From Henriciella sp. AS95 (GTDB lineage: Bacteria > Pseudomonadota > Alphaproteobacteria > Caulobacterales > Hyphomonadaceae): a DNA stretch of 64,000 bases. The position numbers and the translations under genes were made by a program. The notes beneath the pieces were generated by a model. The model saw only the letters and a program-made list of their open reading frames with translations, was not told where the DNA came from and ran no database searches. Location: positions 2,046,001 through 2,110,000 of the forward strand of contig NZ_JBBMQM010000001.1 in assembly GCF_038900055.1 (NCBI RefSeq), read 5' to 3'. Below are positions 6,515 through 30,384 of this stretch, piece by piece (position 1 is the first letter of the stretch; every line of letters begins with the position of its first letter).

Positions 6515-6568
6515 AACTGGATATAGTTGCCCTGCCGGTCTAGGTGGTTGGCGATAGGAGGACACCCA

Positions 6569-7741
6569 ATGCACTCAATCGGTCAGATGACGGAAGACCA
6601 AGTCGCCATCAAGGATGCTGTCGAGCGGACCTGTAGCCAGTTCGATGACGAGTATTGGGCCAAGACCGATGAGACCGGCAATTGGCCGGAAGCCTTCTGC
6701 GATGCGATGGCGGAGGGTGGCTGGCTCGGCGTCGCATTCCCGGAAGAATATGGCGGCGCAGGTCTCGGGCTTACCGAAGCGGCGCTTGTCATGCAGACGG
6801 TAACGCGCTCTGGCGCTGGCTATTCAGGTGCATCGGCAATCCACCTCAATATTTTCGGGCCCAAACCGCTCGAGAAATTCGGTACGCCTGAGCAGAAGCA
6901 GGAAAACCTTCCTCGCATCATCTCCGGCGAAGAGAAGATGTGCTTTGCCGTGACCGAACCAAACTCGGGCCTCGACACATCCAGCCTCGAGACCAAGGCA
7001 GAGCGCACCAATGCCGGCTACACCATCAATGGCCGCAAGATCTGGACGACGGGGGCCCAGCGCGCCGACAAGATCCTGATCATCGCGCGCACAACGCCGA
7101 AAGATCAGTGCGCCAAACCCTATCTCGGCCTGTCACTGTTCTACACAGACCTCGACCGGGGCAAGATCGACGCCAAGCCGATCCCGAAAATGGGCCGCAA
7201 GGCTGTTGAATGTAACATGCTCTATATCGACGGGCTCGAAGTGCCGAAGGAACATCTGATCGGTGAGGAAGGGCAGGGGTTCAAATACCTCCTTCAGGGC
7301 CTCAACCCGGAGCGTGTCCTCTTCGCCGTGGAGTCCATCGGCCTCGGCTTCGCCGCGCTCGAACGCGCTGCCACCTATGCCAAAGAGCGTGTCGTCTTTG
7401 GCCGCCCGATCGGTCAGAATCAGGGCATCCAGCATCCGCTCGCCAGAAGCTGGGCAGAGCTGAAAGCCGCCGAATTGCTCGCTTACAAGGCGGCTGGCCT
7501 GTACGATGCCGGGCAGGACTGCGGCGCCGAAGCCAATGCCGCGAAATATCTCGGCACCGAAGCCGGGTTCAGCGCCTGCGAGAATGCTGTCCTCACACAT
7601 GGCGGCATGGGCTATGCGAAGGAATATCATGTCGAGCGCTATATGCGCGAAGCCATGCTCGCCCGCATCGCCCCGGTCAGCCGTGAAATGATTCTGAATT
7701 TCCTGGCCGAACGTGTGCTGGGCTTGCCGAAGAGTTACTGA
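6569..7741 (+). CDS. Acyl-CoA dehydrogenase (lacking the usual late catalytic motif)
   Basis: Flavoprotein of 390 residues of the acyl-CoA dehydrogenase fold: N-terminal helical domain, middle beta domain (FAVTEPNSGLD near 130) and C-terminal helices (THGGMGYAKEYHVERY near 350). The ATG at 6569 follows a good ribosome site (TAGGAGG) and removes 14 doubtful residues. The tail after GGMGY reads ARIAPVSREM rather than the common RxYEGTSxIQ, so the usual catalytic Glu position differs from that of the second dehydrogenase at 12662; the true substrate class is uncertain. Its 3' end is duplicated beyond the next gene, at 8395-8475. Confidence 0.88.
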   Translation: MHSIGQMTEDQVAIKDAVERTCSQFDDEYWAKTDETGNWPEAFCDAMAEGGWLGVAFPEEYGGAGLGLTEAALVMQTVTRSGAGYSGASAIHLNIFGPKPLEKFGTPEQKQENLPRIISGEEKMCFAVTEPNSGLDTSSLETKAERTNAGYTINGRKIWTTGAQRADKILIIARTTPKDQCAKPYLGLSLFYTDLDRGKIDAKPIPKMGRKAVECNMLYIDGLEVPKEHLIGEEGQGFKYLLQGLNPERVLFAVESIGLGFAALERAATYAKERVVFGRPIGQNQGIQHPLARSWAELKAAELLAYKAAGLYDAGQDCGAEANAAKYLGTEAGFSACENAVLTHGGMGYAKEYHVERYMREAMLARIAPVSREMILNFLAERVLGLPKSY

Positions 7742-7763
7742 TAACAACAGGAAAGGGTGGGGG

Positions 7764-8378
7764 ATGAAGATCAGGATTGCGATGGCCGCCTTGGCGGCAA
7801 TGGCGGCATGTTCGCAGGAACCGGCAGCAGACGCGCCGACGCCTGATCACCTCCTGATCGGCCCTCTTTTCGCCGACAGTTTTTCATGCGCCCAGCATTG
7901 GCAGGGCCAGCTTCCCCATATGGGGGATGCGCTCGGCTCGGACTGCTATGTCTATCGACTGGTCGACACGCCATCGGGCGGGAAGTTTGCACGCGCTTAC
8001 GTCAATGATGGCCTGTCGAATGAAGACTGGTTTTCGTGGAACGAGCCCGTGCTCGCCGGGATCGACGGCGAGATTATCCGGATGCATGAGAACCCGGTTG
8101 TCAATGAACCTGGCAATCTCGGAGAGCCACCGGCCTCAATGATCGTGATCAAGCGGGCCGATGGCGCGCACTTGCTCTACGCGCATATTGCATCTCCTCT
8201 GGTTGAGGTCGGTGATGTCGTGACGGCCGGTCAGCAGATCGCTGTCGTCGGTAACAATGGATACGGTCGGAACCCGCACATCCATCTTGGCGCGTGGATG
8301 GACGGCAAGCCGCTTCCGATTGCCTTCGATCTGGACGCCTATGGGCGGCTCATGGACGACGCTGACGGATCCGATTGA
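7764..8378 (+). CDS. M23 (LytM/peptidase_M23) family lipoprotein
   Basis: Predicted cell-wall-linked lipoprotein of 204 residues. The ATG at 7764 follows GGGTGGGGG and starts a lipoprotein signal with the lipobox cysteine at residue 13 (AAMAAC). The C-terminal part shows the M23 core: YAHIASPLVEVGD, a VVGNNGYG turn, then HIHLG near residue 175, which supplies zinc ligands. The usual first HxGxD motif is not clear, but HMGDALGSD near residue 45 may take its place. It would cleave or bind peptidoglycan cross-links. It sits between an acyl-CoA dehydrogenase and a fragment resembling that dehydrogenase's tail, so this gene may have arrived by rearrangement. Confidence 0.75.
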   Translation: MKIRIAMAALAAMAACSQEPAADAPTPDHLLIGPLFADSFSCAQHWQGQLPHMGDALGSDCYVYRLVDTPSGGKFARAYVNDGLSNEDWFSWNEPVLAGIDGEIIRMHENPVVNEPGNLGEPPASMIVIKRADGAHLLYAHIASPLVEVGDVVTAGQQIAVVGNNGYGRNPHIHLGAWMDGKPLPIAFDLDAYGRLMDDADGSD

Positions 8379-8394
8379 GGAACGTTCATTCGAC

Positions 8395-8475
8395 GCCCGC
8401 GTCGCGCCGGTCAGCCGGGAGATGATCCTGAACTTCATCGCAGAGCGCGTGCTGGGCTTGCCGAAGAGCTACTAG
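8395..8475 (+). pseudogene. 3'-end remnant of a second acyl-CoA dehydrogenase
   Basis: These 81 bases encode a tail (VAPVSREMILNF ... VLGLPKSY, stop) nearly identical to the C-terminus of the dehydrogenase ending at 7741. By eye about 15 of 81 bases differ, mostly at third codon positions, so the copy came from a once-functional paralogue rather than a recent duplication. No start codon or upstream homology remains; similarity breaks at the ALA-ARI boundary. It begins 17 bp after the M23 stop. Confidence 0.8.
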
Positions 8476-10976
8476 TTCATCTGGAACCGCCGACGGATCG
8501 CAAGGCCTGACAGGAAGGCCAGGATAATTGCGGTCAGCGACTGAAAGCTCGCCAGCAGGCGCAGGCCAAACGGCACCCACGTGCCATAGTGAATTGCACC
8601 TCCGGAGCAATTTTCACGACCCGCTGTTTCCAGCATTTGTCCAATGCGGGAACACGCCTCCGGAGCCGCCCACGGACCAAAAGGCAACACCCGACCTGTC
8701 GAAAATGAGAGCGCGTTTTCGAGCTCGCTCACCGTAGGCGTGTGATGCGGAAAGGATGCCATCGCGGCATAAATCGCGGCGAACAGCAGAACACCGCAAA
8801 TTAGCCAGACAATCGGCAATACGGCTGAGTTTCCATACTTGGATGCCCCACCATAGATGTGAGACAGCGTCCGTTCCCAGATCGGGATGCCCTCTTTCTC
8901 CTGCCAGAAGGCCAGCATTTGAGGTGCCGTATATTTCGGCCGGCGTCGCCTGCGCCGGGCAATCAATTCCAACCGGTGGAATCGGCTCTCTTCCAGCCTG
9001 TCCCGCCTGTCTTCATTGAATAGTTTCAAAGTACGGTAGCAGTCTTCCAGAGCGCGAAAATACTCGTTCCGATCTTCGACCGAACCTTCCGCAAAAGCCC
9101 GCGCCTCACTCCGCCGCCACGCCTGAAATTCCTCAAGGCCACCTTCATATAGCGCTGACCATTTTGAGGCGTCCCGCAGATACTGCTCTTTATTCGATTC
9201 AAGCGCATCTGCCCTGGGGGGCTTCGGCTTTTCCGGAACAGCCCGCTTCAAAGTCTCCAGTCCTTCCATCAGCGCACCGGGGACTGGCAGACAAGACTCC
9301 TGAGCCTTACCCTGATCCAGAGCTAACTCAACACGGGCTTTCCTAAAGTTGATGCCACGGTGCAGCGCACTGTCATGGAGTTTGAACAGATGGAAAAAGT
9401 GAGCATCATGGAAATCGGATTCAACACCGTCAGGCCCACTCAGAAAGTCCCGATTGGAAAAGTTGGCGGGCCCCAGAAACACGGCTCCATTGGCGGCGAA
9501 ACGCTGAATGGAACGCCGCGCCATCGCGAGTGGGGTAGGCTGGTCCACACGCTCGCTCATCAGGCTGCGCCTCTCCCCGCCAAAATCGGCATCACCTAAA
9601 AAGACAGCACCGTTGAAATGAGCTTCTCCCGAGAAGGCAGCGCTGGCGAAACAAGCGTCTTCTGAGAAGGCAGCGTTGTCGAACCAAGCATCTCCCGAGA
9701 AGGTGGCGGTCTCGAAGATGGCACCTCTCGAAAAGGCGGCGCTCTCGAAGATGGCGTATCCCGAGAAGACGGCGCTATCGAAATTGGCGTTTCCCGAGAA
9801 CGCGGCGCTGTCGAAGATCGCATCTCCCGAGAAGGCGGCGTTGGCGAAGACGGCGTCTCCCGAGAATGTGACGCTCTCGAAGCTGGCGTATCCAGAGAAG
9901 GCCGCGCTGTTGAACCAGGCGTCTCGCGAGAAGGCGGCGCTATCGAAGTTGGCGTTTCTCGAGAAGGCGGCACTGTCGAAGCGGACATCTCCCGAGAAGG
10001 CGGCGCTGTTGAAGCTGGCGTCTCCCGAGAAGGCAGCGCTGAAGAAGCGGGCCTTTCCCGAGAAGGCGGCGCTGCTGAACACGGCGTCTCCCGAGAAGGC
10101 GGCGCCGTAGAAGCCGGCGTCTCCCGAGAAGGAGGCGCTGTCGAAGCGGGCGTTTCCCGAGAAGGCGGCGCTGCTGAACCCGGCGTCTCCCGAGAAGGCG
10201 GCGCCGTAGAAAATGGCGTCTCCCGAGAAGACGGCGCTCTCGAATTCAGCAACTCCCGAGAAGGTGGCGCTGTGGAAGCTGGCGTCTACCGAGAAGGCGG
10301 CGCTGTCGAAGCGAGCGTCTCCCGAGAAGGCGGCGCTGTAGAAGCTGACGTCTCCCGAGAAGGCGGCGCTGTAGAAGCTGACGTCTCCCGAGAAGGCGGC
10401 ACTGTCGAAGCGGACATCTCCCGAGAAGGCGGCGCTGTTGAACCAAGCGTCTCCCAAGAAGGCGGCATCTATTGCATGCAGGGAGAGGGGAATCCTGTCA
10501 TCCTCGTCCCGGGATTGGGCGGACAGGTCTTCAAGGTCGAAATGCGGCAGGACGACTCCGCGCCACTGCATCCGGTGGTCCGGCCCTTCAAGCTCGCCCC
10601 AATCCAGATATTTGGTTTCCATGATCGGCCGGGCCAGTTCGGAACGAAGCACATCATACACCTCCTCCAGGAAGGCTTTGTCGTCCTTCCCCTTCAGCGT
10701 CTCGCTGCCATCTTCGAATGTCAGGGGCAGGTGGATGCGGGTGAACTGTTTGCCCGTTTTGGGACACGTATGCCCCTCACGCTTGATATCCTCCTCGAGG
10801 CCTGCGCGCCGCCAATAATCCTGCAGCGTAGCCTGATCGCCGTCCACACCAACTTTGCCCGGCACCGGAACGCCATCCTCCGGCACGACCCAGCCATCCC
10901 AGTCCTTCTTCGCCAGCCCATCCCAGGAGTAATCCTCCTCCCACCACCGGTCCCACCATTCCTCAGAGATTGTCAT
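8472..10976 (-). CDS. Large 11-residue-repeat (Pentapeptide_3-type) protein with two C-terminal membrane helices
   Basis: Protein of 834 residues. Residues 1-172 are a Trp/Asp-rich unrecognised domain (many WW and DW pairs). Residues 173-469 are 27 tandem copies of an 11-residue unit of the form FSGDAxFxSAA; alternating A-x-F steps match the quadrilateral beta-helix of pentapeptide-repeat proteins (Pfam Pentapeptide_3). A charged helical segment follows (about 560-700, ending in RRRRRR), then helix 1 (about 720-745), a short [10 protein letters not shown] segment and helix 2 (about 800-828) before LAIRRRF. The ATG at 10976 is preferred to an upstream start at 11042. The helix-loop-helix end resembles two-TM pore modules seen on some pentapeptide proteins. 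Function is unknown; ion-channel or membrane-scaffold roles are guesses. Confidence 0.8.
9570..10460 (-). repeat. 33-bp tandem coding repeat, 27 units
   Basis: Twenty-seven uninterrupted 33-bp units inside the repeat protein encode FSGDAxFxSAA. Units differ mainly at the two x positions and at scattered third bases, while the TCTCCCGAGAAGGCGGCG block is strongly kept. There are no unique spacers. Such an array is prone to slippage, so copy number may vary between strains. Confidence 0.92.
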
Positions 10977-11043
10977 CTGTGCGCCCTGTGCTGCCCCGAC
11001 AGCGTCAGGTAGGCGCGCGGCGATGGCGTGTAAACCTGCCACC

Positions 11044-11670
11044 TTACATGTCGTCGGCCTTGGTCATGTGCAGGAAGAATTCTTCCTTGCTGTTGGTGCG
11101 GGGATAGTCGCCGTCCGGGACCGCGACGCCAAGGAAGTCGCACAGCGGCTGCCAGCCATCCTTTGCGCTATGAACCAGAAGACGATCGTCAGGGATCGCC
11201 GCCTTCACCTTGGCTTCATGAGCCTCGAATGCCCTGATCAGTGCGTCCTTGTCTCGCGCATCTCCAAAGCTGCGCTCAAGCACCTTGGTCACCATCTTGA
11301 ACCACTCAACCGCCTGAGGCGGCCATGTGTCCGGTGCCCACACCGTGGCAAGAATCGTCTCGGAAATGCTGGCATACCAGCTCTCTGGTGAGCGCGTGGA
11401 GAGGATGATCTTCGCCTCCGGACAGGCATCAGCGGTCTCTTTCCAAAAAGCGGCAGTGGGCCAGTCCACGGCTGAAACGTAGCCTTGATAGATCGCGTCG
11501 AAATCCGGGGCACCGGCCAGCGCATCATTCCAGAGCTCAACTTGCGGATCGGGATTTTCGATCACTTCGATCATGTGATAGCACGGCCCGAATCCCAATT
11601 GCTCCAGCGCGAGCTTGAGCGACATGGTTCCCGTCCGGCCAAAACCGGCGCTTATGACTTTCAGTGACAT
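11044..11670 (-). CDS. Sulfotransferase family protein (Sulfotransfer_4 type)
   Basis: P-loop protein of 208 residues. The N-terminal phosphosulfate-binding loop is GFGRTGTMSLK (residues 10-20), and a 3'-phosphate-binding segment ILSTRSPESWYAS lies near residue 95; both fit PAPS-dependent sulfotransferases of the Sulfotransfer_4 group. A strong ribosome site (GGGAGGGG) precedes the ATG. The acceptor is unknown. It ends 68 bp from the repeat-protein start on the same strand, so the two may be co-transcribed. Confidence 0.8.
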   Translation of the reverse strand: MSLKVISAGFGRTGTMSLKLALEQLGFGPCYHMIEVIENPDPQVELWNDALAGAPDFDAIYQGYVSAVDWPTAAFWKETADACPEAKIILSTRSPESWYASISETILATVWAPDTWPPQAVEWFKMVTKVLERSFGDARDKDALIRAFEAHEAKVKAAIPDDRLLVHSAKDGWQPLCDFLGVAVPDGDYPRTNSKEEFFLHMTKADDM

Positions 11671-27986: not shown

Positions 27987-30242
<2,256 letters not shown>

Positions 30243-30306: not shown

Positions 30307-30340
30307 CGCATCTTTAACGGCTGTCGTTCGCATTGACCTG

Positions 30341-30384
30341 AAATCGGCCTGTAATCGGCCCGGTATCGGCCTAAAATCGGCCTG
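30341..30384. repeat. Four tandem 11-bp repeats after katG
   Basis: Four direct copies of an 11-bp unit (AAATCGGCCTG and close variants, core ATCGGCC) lie head to tail downstream of the katG terminator and 20 bp beyond the DUF1287 stop codon. Each unit spans about one helical turn, so the cores face the same side of the DNA. No adjacent gene starts here, so the role is unclear. Confidence 0.75.

Follow-up and report, generated by a model that had tools for sequence, protein, structure and literature searches.

Pentapeptide repeat proteins are defined by at least eight contiguous five-residue repeats and comprise nearly 39,000 sequences, whose functions in cyanobacteria are almost completely unknown, as stated in the portion of the source drawn on here (PMC8145042). 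The same portion describes HglK of heterocyst-forming cyanobacteria as a membrane-spanning protein with four predicted N-terminal transmembrane (TM) regions and 36 C-terminal pentapeptide repeats of the form AXLXX (PMC8145042). The genome of Henriciella sp. AS95 encodes a protein that, compared by description only, resembles HglK in being membrane spanning and carrying pentapeptide repeats and has the reverse domain order. Its gene lies in a 64,000-nucleotide stretch (contig NZ_JBBMQM010000001.1, positions 2,046,001 to 2,110,000), referred to below in its full length as the window. We tentatively view this protein as a cytosolic β-helix that would serve as a sensor or tether arm on an oligomeric, channel-like inner-membrane module, a reading that we place slightly short of an even chance and that includes a presumed gating partner and a presumed oligomer. 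Searches of the open-licence PMC literature, judged by title and start of abstract, returned no paper on a bacterial pentapeptide-repeat channel. The gene and its parts have the following window coordinates.

8472..10976, reverse strand: gene for the pentapeptide-repeat membrane protein, 834 amino acids, with ATG at 10976 and stop at 8472-8474; an in-frame GTG at 11042 is also possible and would give 856 amino acids
10476..10976, reverse strand: residues 1-167, Trp-rich N-terminal domain, no Pfam or NCBIfam match, low model confidence
9576..10466, reverse strand: residues 171-467, 27 units of 11 residues in phase (AAFSGDAxFxS), right-handed β-helix in the model
9327..9575, reverse strand: residues 468-550, degenerate end of the β-helix with an FSNRDF motif (sequence alignment and model)
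8883..9314, reverse strand: residues 555-698, charged stalk, mostly α-helical, with ARRRRRRP in its later part (composition and model)
8475..8882, reverse strand: residues 699-834, membrane module, whose model resembles the pore domains of P-loop channels
8754..8822, reverse strand: TM1, residues 719-741 (model)
8688..8732, reverse strand: short helix at the pore-helix position, residues 749-763 (model)
8670..8684, reverse strand: PFGPW, residues 765-769, at the place of the selectivity filter; P765 is found in 94% of 34 aligned C-termini
8478..8579, reverse strand: TM2, residues 800-833, ending in GLAIRRRFQ (model and alignment)

The original prediction, made from the sequence alone, described a perfectly phased solenoid of 27 11-residue copies between a Trp-rich N terminus and a charged helix, with two TM segments at the end. 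This outline holds. The coordinates, copy number, and phase are exact, with 27 unbroken units spanning 297 residues; the N-terminal domain has 10 Trp in 167 residues; the stalk, modelled mostly as α-helix, contains 26 Asp/Glu and 29 Lys/Arg among its 144 residues; and the protein closes with two long hydrophobic helices, modelled as TM1 and TM2.

By its profile score, the array is a member of the known repeat family Pentapeptide_3 (Pfam ID PF13576), matching it in seven stretches with 140.8 bits (cut-off 27; E 1.5e-41). This is the sole Pfam family found at E ≤ 1 for the 834-residue protein, and NCBIfam gives no family for it. Phe occupies unit positions 3 and 9 in 27 of 27 units without a break, and the longest such chain in 2,000 shuffles of the protein is 2. 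Tandem Repeats Finder reports a 33-bp period with 25.5 copies and 79% matches at 9625-10466. Open reading frames of 144 to 246 amino acids that overlap on both strands at 9596-11012 look like by-products of this period. The array shares with Pentapeptide_3 proteins the profile score and a modelled β-helix, and differs in its period of 11 (six plus five), its 27 unbroken units, and its fusion to a Trp-rich N terminus and a membrane module without a Pfam match. Eight contiguous five-residue repeats in the strict sense are absent, as the spacing of the core Phe residues alternates between six and five across all 27 units.

An AlphaFold2 model of the full protein, built from 13 sequences, gives pLDDT values of 75 to 89 for residues 171-240 and 90 to 97 for residues 241-460, except for residues 331-340 (9957-9986), where confidence dips to 50 and the repeat sequence is unbroken; the dip may be an artefact of modelling or mark an interrupted helix. 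In a VIA-align 2 comparison of the array model, the top rows are EfsQnr and QnrB1, both with Z 17.1 (EfsQnr at 3.5 Å over 198 residues), with the Sf6 phage tailspike tied at 17.1 and AlbG (16.9) next, followed by other β-helices; MfpA is also among the top rows. In this prediction the right-handed β-helix is clear. Because the Sf6 tailspike ties with EfsQnr and QnrB1, the four-sided form is not singled out by the comparison and is taken from the family. At 22 residues and a rise of 4.8 Å for each coil, the 27 units would make 13.5 coils with a length of about 6.5 nm. Variation within the unit is concentrated around F9, where positions 8 and 10 have entropies of 3.2 and 2.8 bits, all other positions being at or below 1.7 bits, including positions 2 and 4 around F3 (1.2 and 0.4 bits). 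A four-sided helix would thus have two opposite faces that are variable and two that are more constant. The net charge of the array is -25 over its 297 residues and ranges from 0 to -26 in the arrays of relatives.

The N-terminal domain has no Pfam or NCBIfam match at E ≤ 1, and its AlphaFold2 confidence is too low for naming a fold. It is conserved in the family, with W7, D15, H82, and P84 invariant in 20 aligned sequences. A Foldseek search with the full-length model finds nothing at E ≤ 0.001.

The membrane module was modelled separately with AlphaFold from the last 205 residues, as a single chain and from 14 sequences. The model has a mean pLDDT of 77 and a pTM of 0.55, and pLDDT is 85 to 91 in the cores of its three helices. 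These are, in order, TM1, a short helix of 15 residues, and TM2, with a loop between the latter two. Among the 50 VIA-align 2 matches listed, 48 are P-loop channels by title, with middling Z scores of 8.0 to 9.6; the other two are a "channel C" and an unnamed transmembrane protein. Examples include SthK (Z 9.6, 2.6 Å over 90 residues), Kir2.2 (Z 8.8, 2.2 Å over 87 residues), TRPM2, and TRPC3. Most rows listed cover 87 to 104 residues at 2.2 to 3.7 Å, with one at 4.5 Å. Foldseek likewise has P-loop channels by title, ionotropic glutamate receptors included, in 48 of the 50 matches listed. In its model, the module resembles two-TM P-loop channels (SthK, Kir2.2, KcsA, and the Ion_trans_2 family) in the TM-short helix-TM order, at 2.2 to 3 Å over ~90 residues with SthK and Kir. 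It differs from them in the lack of a match to PF07885 (Ion_trans_2), in having PFGPW instead of GYG, and in the paired-cysteine loop between PFGPW and TM2. At the level of Pfam, the last 156 residues have no match at E ≤ 1.

Profile-profile comparisons used four query alignments, A2 (11 C-terminal sequences), A5, A3, and a 34-sequence alignment, with 20 small two-TM Ion_trans_2 proteins as the target. A2 scores 35.2 (probability 67%), A5 29.4, the 34-sequence alignment 25.7, and A3 21.5. The A2 alignment pairs TM1 and the pore helix, and the AL.FS of the short helix is matched in register. Permutations that preserve hydropathy, 60 in number and run for this target with A2 and the 34-sequence alignment only, give A2 a maximum of 21.6. 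The MscL control yields 15.2 to 18.4 with the four query alignments (16.0 with A2), reversed Ion_trans_2 alignments at most 14.0, and two Ion_trans_2 sets compared with each other 119.7. A separate comparison with only 11 Ion_trans_2 sequences finds no match (probability 0.2%). Of the four query alignments, A2 alone clearly beats the controls against the small two-TM set, and the similarity detected at this level is weak. The GYG selectivity filter is missing from the protein, PFGPW standing at its place, and GYG occurs in 0 of 34 loop segments. The pore-like end of the original prediction thus gains partial support from the model, from the 48 of 50 structural matches listed, and from a weak in-register profile similarity to Ion_trans_2; the direct Ion_trans_2 profile match that it proposed to look for was not obtained (PF07885 in 0 of 20 C-termini), and there is no GYG. 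Remote kinship with the P-loop fold or convergence to it is likely, and membership in Ion_trans_2 is not supported. GYG channels fused to pentapeptide repeats are present in databases; none was found in this analysis, where the long Ion_trans_2 frame L098 shows no such repeats by eye, and no channel-type G-Y/F-G-D motif is seen in the C-termini of at most 28 of the 30 best Pentapeptide_3 loci of the class sample (L215 and L228 being unread).

The distribution of cysteines and arginines points to a topology. In 34 C-termini, the loop has two cysteines in 15 (11 close relatives and four distant ones), none in 18, and one in a single case; in the window protein the two are C775 and C790. The loop is probably periplasmic, because such near all-or-none pairing is expected of a disulfide in an oxidising compartment. 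TM2 is directly followed by RRRF, and a run of six arginines lies ~40 residues before TM1. According to the positive-inside rule, positively charged flanks favour the cytosolic side, so that both ends of the module would be cytosolic and, with them, probably the N-terminal domain and the β-helix. Among the 34 C-termini, the cytosolic ends of both TM helices are highly conserved, with Y708 (97%), G715 (97%), and S717 (94%) at that of TM1. These ends are where the stalk would couple.

In the mechanism that we propose, the module would sit with both ends in the cytosol and the loop in the periplasm and would form an oligomer, probably a tetramer. A cytosolic partner may bind the variable faces of the β-helix, and the helical stalk could relay this binding to a small pore, which would then open, close, or be positioned. 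Without a K+ filter, the hypothetical conductance would be non-selective or of unknown selectivity.

In the same family, 18 of 105 genomes contain a relative of the C-terminal 375 residues; in the same order, 21 of 200 contain one of the last 192 residues; and in the class, 14 of 142 have a match to the A3 profile. Each count includes the genome studied here. In the class sample, a TM-short segment-TM arrangement of this type closes, by eye, no fewer than 9 of the 30 best Pentapeptide_3 loci; one of these is the paralog from the same genome, and in two of the 30 loci another reading frame was read. Named relatives, at 13 loci, include Hyphomonas jannaschiana, H. beringensis, Henriciella barbarensis, and an Asticcacaulis metagenome-assembled genome (MAG). 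Because the module occurs in 14 of 142 class genomes and at the end of at least 9 of the 30 best loci, with no Pfam match in the members scanned, a new family could be defined for it. A further step, which we regard as rather doubtful, would be that this is an unnamed family of P-loop channels that has lost the K+ filter, spread in Alphaproteobacteria and, in the relatives examined, usually placed behind a Pentapeptide_3 β-helix. With its variable length of a few to 27 units, that β-helix would serve in the cytosol as a ruler or as an arm for gating.

A phage or plasmid origin was rejected: none of 22 pattern matches in viral contigs was confirmed as a relative, PHROG has no match at E ≤ 0.01, and the C-terminal domain occurs in one of 72,556 plasmid records (Methylomonas, 32% identity). 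The whole protein matches 115 plasmid records; in the 20 listed, the match covers query residues 132-529, the array region. One relative is apparently broken (L037 and L065 of genome G053), with a 315-residue frame that stops early after the array and a separate 82-residue frame that represents the C terminus. Another Pentapeptide_3 match lies in a 254-residue frame ~10 kb before the window (G000:C1:2035994-2036119).

The copy at locus L027, from genome G035 of the Hyphomonas group, shares all 27 units with the window gene, in unchanged order. At the DNA level, 13 of the 27 unit pairs are identical, 10 differ by 1 or 2 bases, and four (units 2, 4, 15, and 17) by 4 to 6 bases; unit 2 of L027 is identical to unit 3 of the window gene. 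This pattern fits the replacement of whole units by unequal exchange or conversion. Because the 27 units pair one-to-one, the array had its present length before the two copies split, and the idea that its perfect phase reflects a recent expansion finds no support for the window copy. Mean DNA identity between units is 0.764 within the window gene and 0.884 in the more uniform 13-unit paralog of the same genome (L032). Strict unit counts, which assume a period of 11 residues and therefore undercount 12-residue arrays, are 27 for L027, 14 for L028, 18 for L029, 11 for L030, 12 for L031, and 13 for L032. Four relatives from the same order (L125 and L127 to L129) show, by eye, 12-residue units of the form AQFSGGDAxFxx; the period thus varies within the family. 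Between the window gene and L027, non-synonymous and synonymous codon differences, as raw counts rather than a selection test, are 21:6 in the array, 6:8 in the membrane module, 5:6 in the N terminus, and 19:16 in the part between. The ratio in the array is as for a surface that would be free to vary.

The gene lies in a putatively acquired segment between resident genes, with the following features.

8394..11100: segment with an apparent Hyphomonas-like donor; its right edge is approximate
8394..8474, forward strand: duplicated 81-bp tail of the acyl-CoA dehydrogenase gene
7713..8378, forward strand: M23 peptidase gene, flanked by the intact acyl-CoA dehydrogenase gene on one side and the duplicated tail on the other
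6527..7741, forward strand: acyl-CoA dehydrogenase, resident, intact flanking gene
11044..11670, reverse strand: Sulfotransfer_4 sulfotransferase, resident flanking gene

Among 27 100-bp windows covering 8401-11100, 26 are 88 to 100% identical to L027 and one, gapped, is at 65%, versus 64 to 80% for six windows of the sulfotransferase gene and 82% for the intact acyl-CoA dehydrogenase gene. The empty-site check covered four loci from other genomes of the same genus, L234 to L237. In three of them (L234 to L236), the sulfotransferase and dehydrogenase genes are adjacent, 14 to 35 bp apart by match ends, with no pentapeptide gene between them; in the stretch examined at L237, there is no dehydrogenase match. 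In the Hyphomonas group, the pentapeptide gene is found between the same two genes at four of five loci (L027 to L030), and L031 shows the dehydrogenase only. The simplest account, from these comparisons, is that the gene, together with the dehydrogenase tail, came from a Hyphomonas-like donor and entered at the homologous junction. The 81-bp tail, probably the scar of the acquisition, is 89% identical to the G035 gene (9 mismatches) and 85% to the resident copy (12 mismatches), a modest difference. Some M23-type match to the peptidase is present in 28 of 29 genomes of the genus, strong only in its own (468.6 bits, the next being 36.2). The paralog L032 is located elsewhere in the genome, by eye beside a zinc-type alcohol dehydrogenase-like gene, as in L033. 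Elsewhere in the window, two short tandem repeats are found at 30337-30384 (11 bp, 4.4 copies) and 29285-29331 (21 bp, 2.2 copies).

Several results weigh against a channel-like arm protein. On the structural side, the NaK, NOMPC, and hERG rows of VIA-align 2 have root mean square deviations of 10.7 to 12.3 Å, a Z score below ~13 for a helical model may mean a mere common arrangement, and Foldseek gives the C-terminal model no match at E ≤ 0.001, the best being 0.47. On the sequence side, PF07885 is absent from all 20 family C-termini scanned with a limit of E 10, a scan in which HMMER filters drop most matches above E ~0.1. The score of the 34-sequence alignment barely exceeds its permutation maximum of 24.2, and that of A3 is no better than the 21.7 of an unrelated pair, the Ion_trans_2 set and MscL. 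With a second Ion_trans_2 set (KTN), the scores fall to 27.8 for A2, 15.7 for A5, 18.3 for the 34-sequence alignment, and 17.0 for A3. When PDB sequences are searched with the C-terminal profile, no channel is returned; the matches are receptors of the G protein-coupled kind and one designed protein, with E values of 0.43 and above. The mean conservation of the C-tail, 0.80, is inflated, as the 11 distant and some other relatives were chosen by that motif; tails of relatives chosen by the array instead look similar. By eye, ten loci contain no common partner gene hinting at a ligand. Finally, beyond the close relatives, differing sequences stand at the filter position (PFGPW, PLSAL, PFGAF, PVVNPG, and others among all relatives). 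Because of this variability, a non-conducting anchor is nearly as likely as the channel-like reading, which leaves it a serious contender that we still hold to be less likely than not. Here, a pore-domain fold would merely hold oligomers of a cytosolic β-helix scaffold at the inner membrane, and the arm would bind proteins or organise membrane complexes. Variation at the filter position while Y708, G715, and S717 are conserved at 94 to 97% agrees with this, as does the description of pentapeptide repeats in bacterial conflict systems as modules that form superstructures or scaffolds, in the part of the source consulted (PMC7159879). However, a plain anchor needs neither the conserved short helix nor the conserved proline after it (94% of 34), and the predicted likeness to P-loop channels would have to be a coincidence or a relic.

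Two other functions appear less probable. The protein might be a conflict-related effector whose arm senses an invader and whose membrane module opens a damaging pore. Its patchy distribution (18 of 105 genomes of the family and 14 of 142 of the class sample), its acquisition at a fixed site, and an array in which non-synonymous differences outnumber synonymous ones would suit such a role, which is nonetheless unlikely: PADLOC searches with the protein, the paralog, and two neighbouring genes yield no family at E ≤ 1, all six neighbours scanned in the window are of metabolic or peptidase type, and the scan of viral contigs confirmed no relative. Identity with the Pycsar TM effector (PycTM) was rejected, since its profile matches only 2 of 20 C-termini, with a best E of 0.49 and 1.2 for the window protein. 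Qnr and MfpA proteins are thought to mimic DNA, and the acidic β-helix might in the same way bind a DNA-binding protein (gyrase-like) and hold it at the membrane. The net charge of the array and the presence of EfsQnr, QnrB1, AlbG, and MfpA among its top structural rows recall these proteins, the β-helix likeness to Qnr, MfpA, and EfsQnr reaching Z 15 to 17. Here, however, the β-helix leads into a stalk and then the membrane module, with no cap, and the charge is not conserved in relatives. The Qnr proteins described in the available portion of PMC8145042 are head-to-head dimers formed through a C-terminal helix, whereas the C terminus here lies in the membrane module. DNA mimicry is a very remote prospect.

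For the biology of this family, one group of pentapeptide-repeat proteins would gain a testable job if its link to a channel-like membrane module is a recurring one. The near-identical pair of arrays with replaced units, together with the clean empty site, is a good case for following how such arrays change and move between genera.

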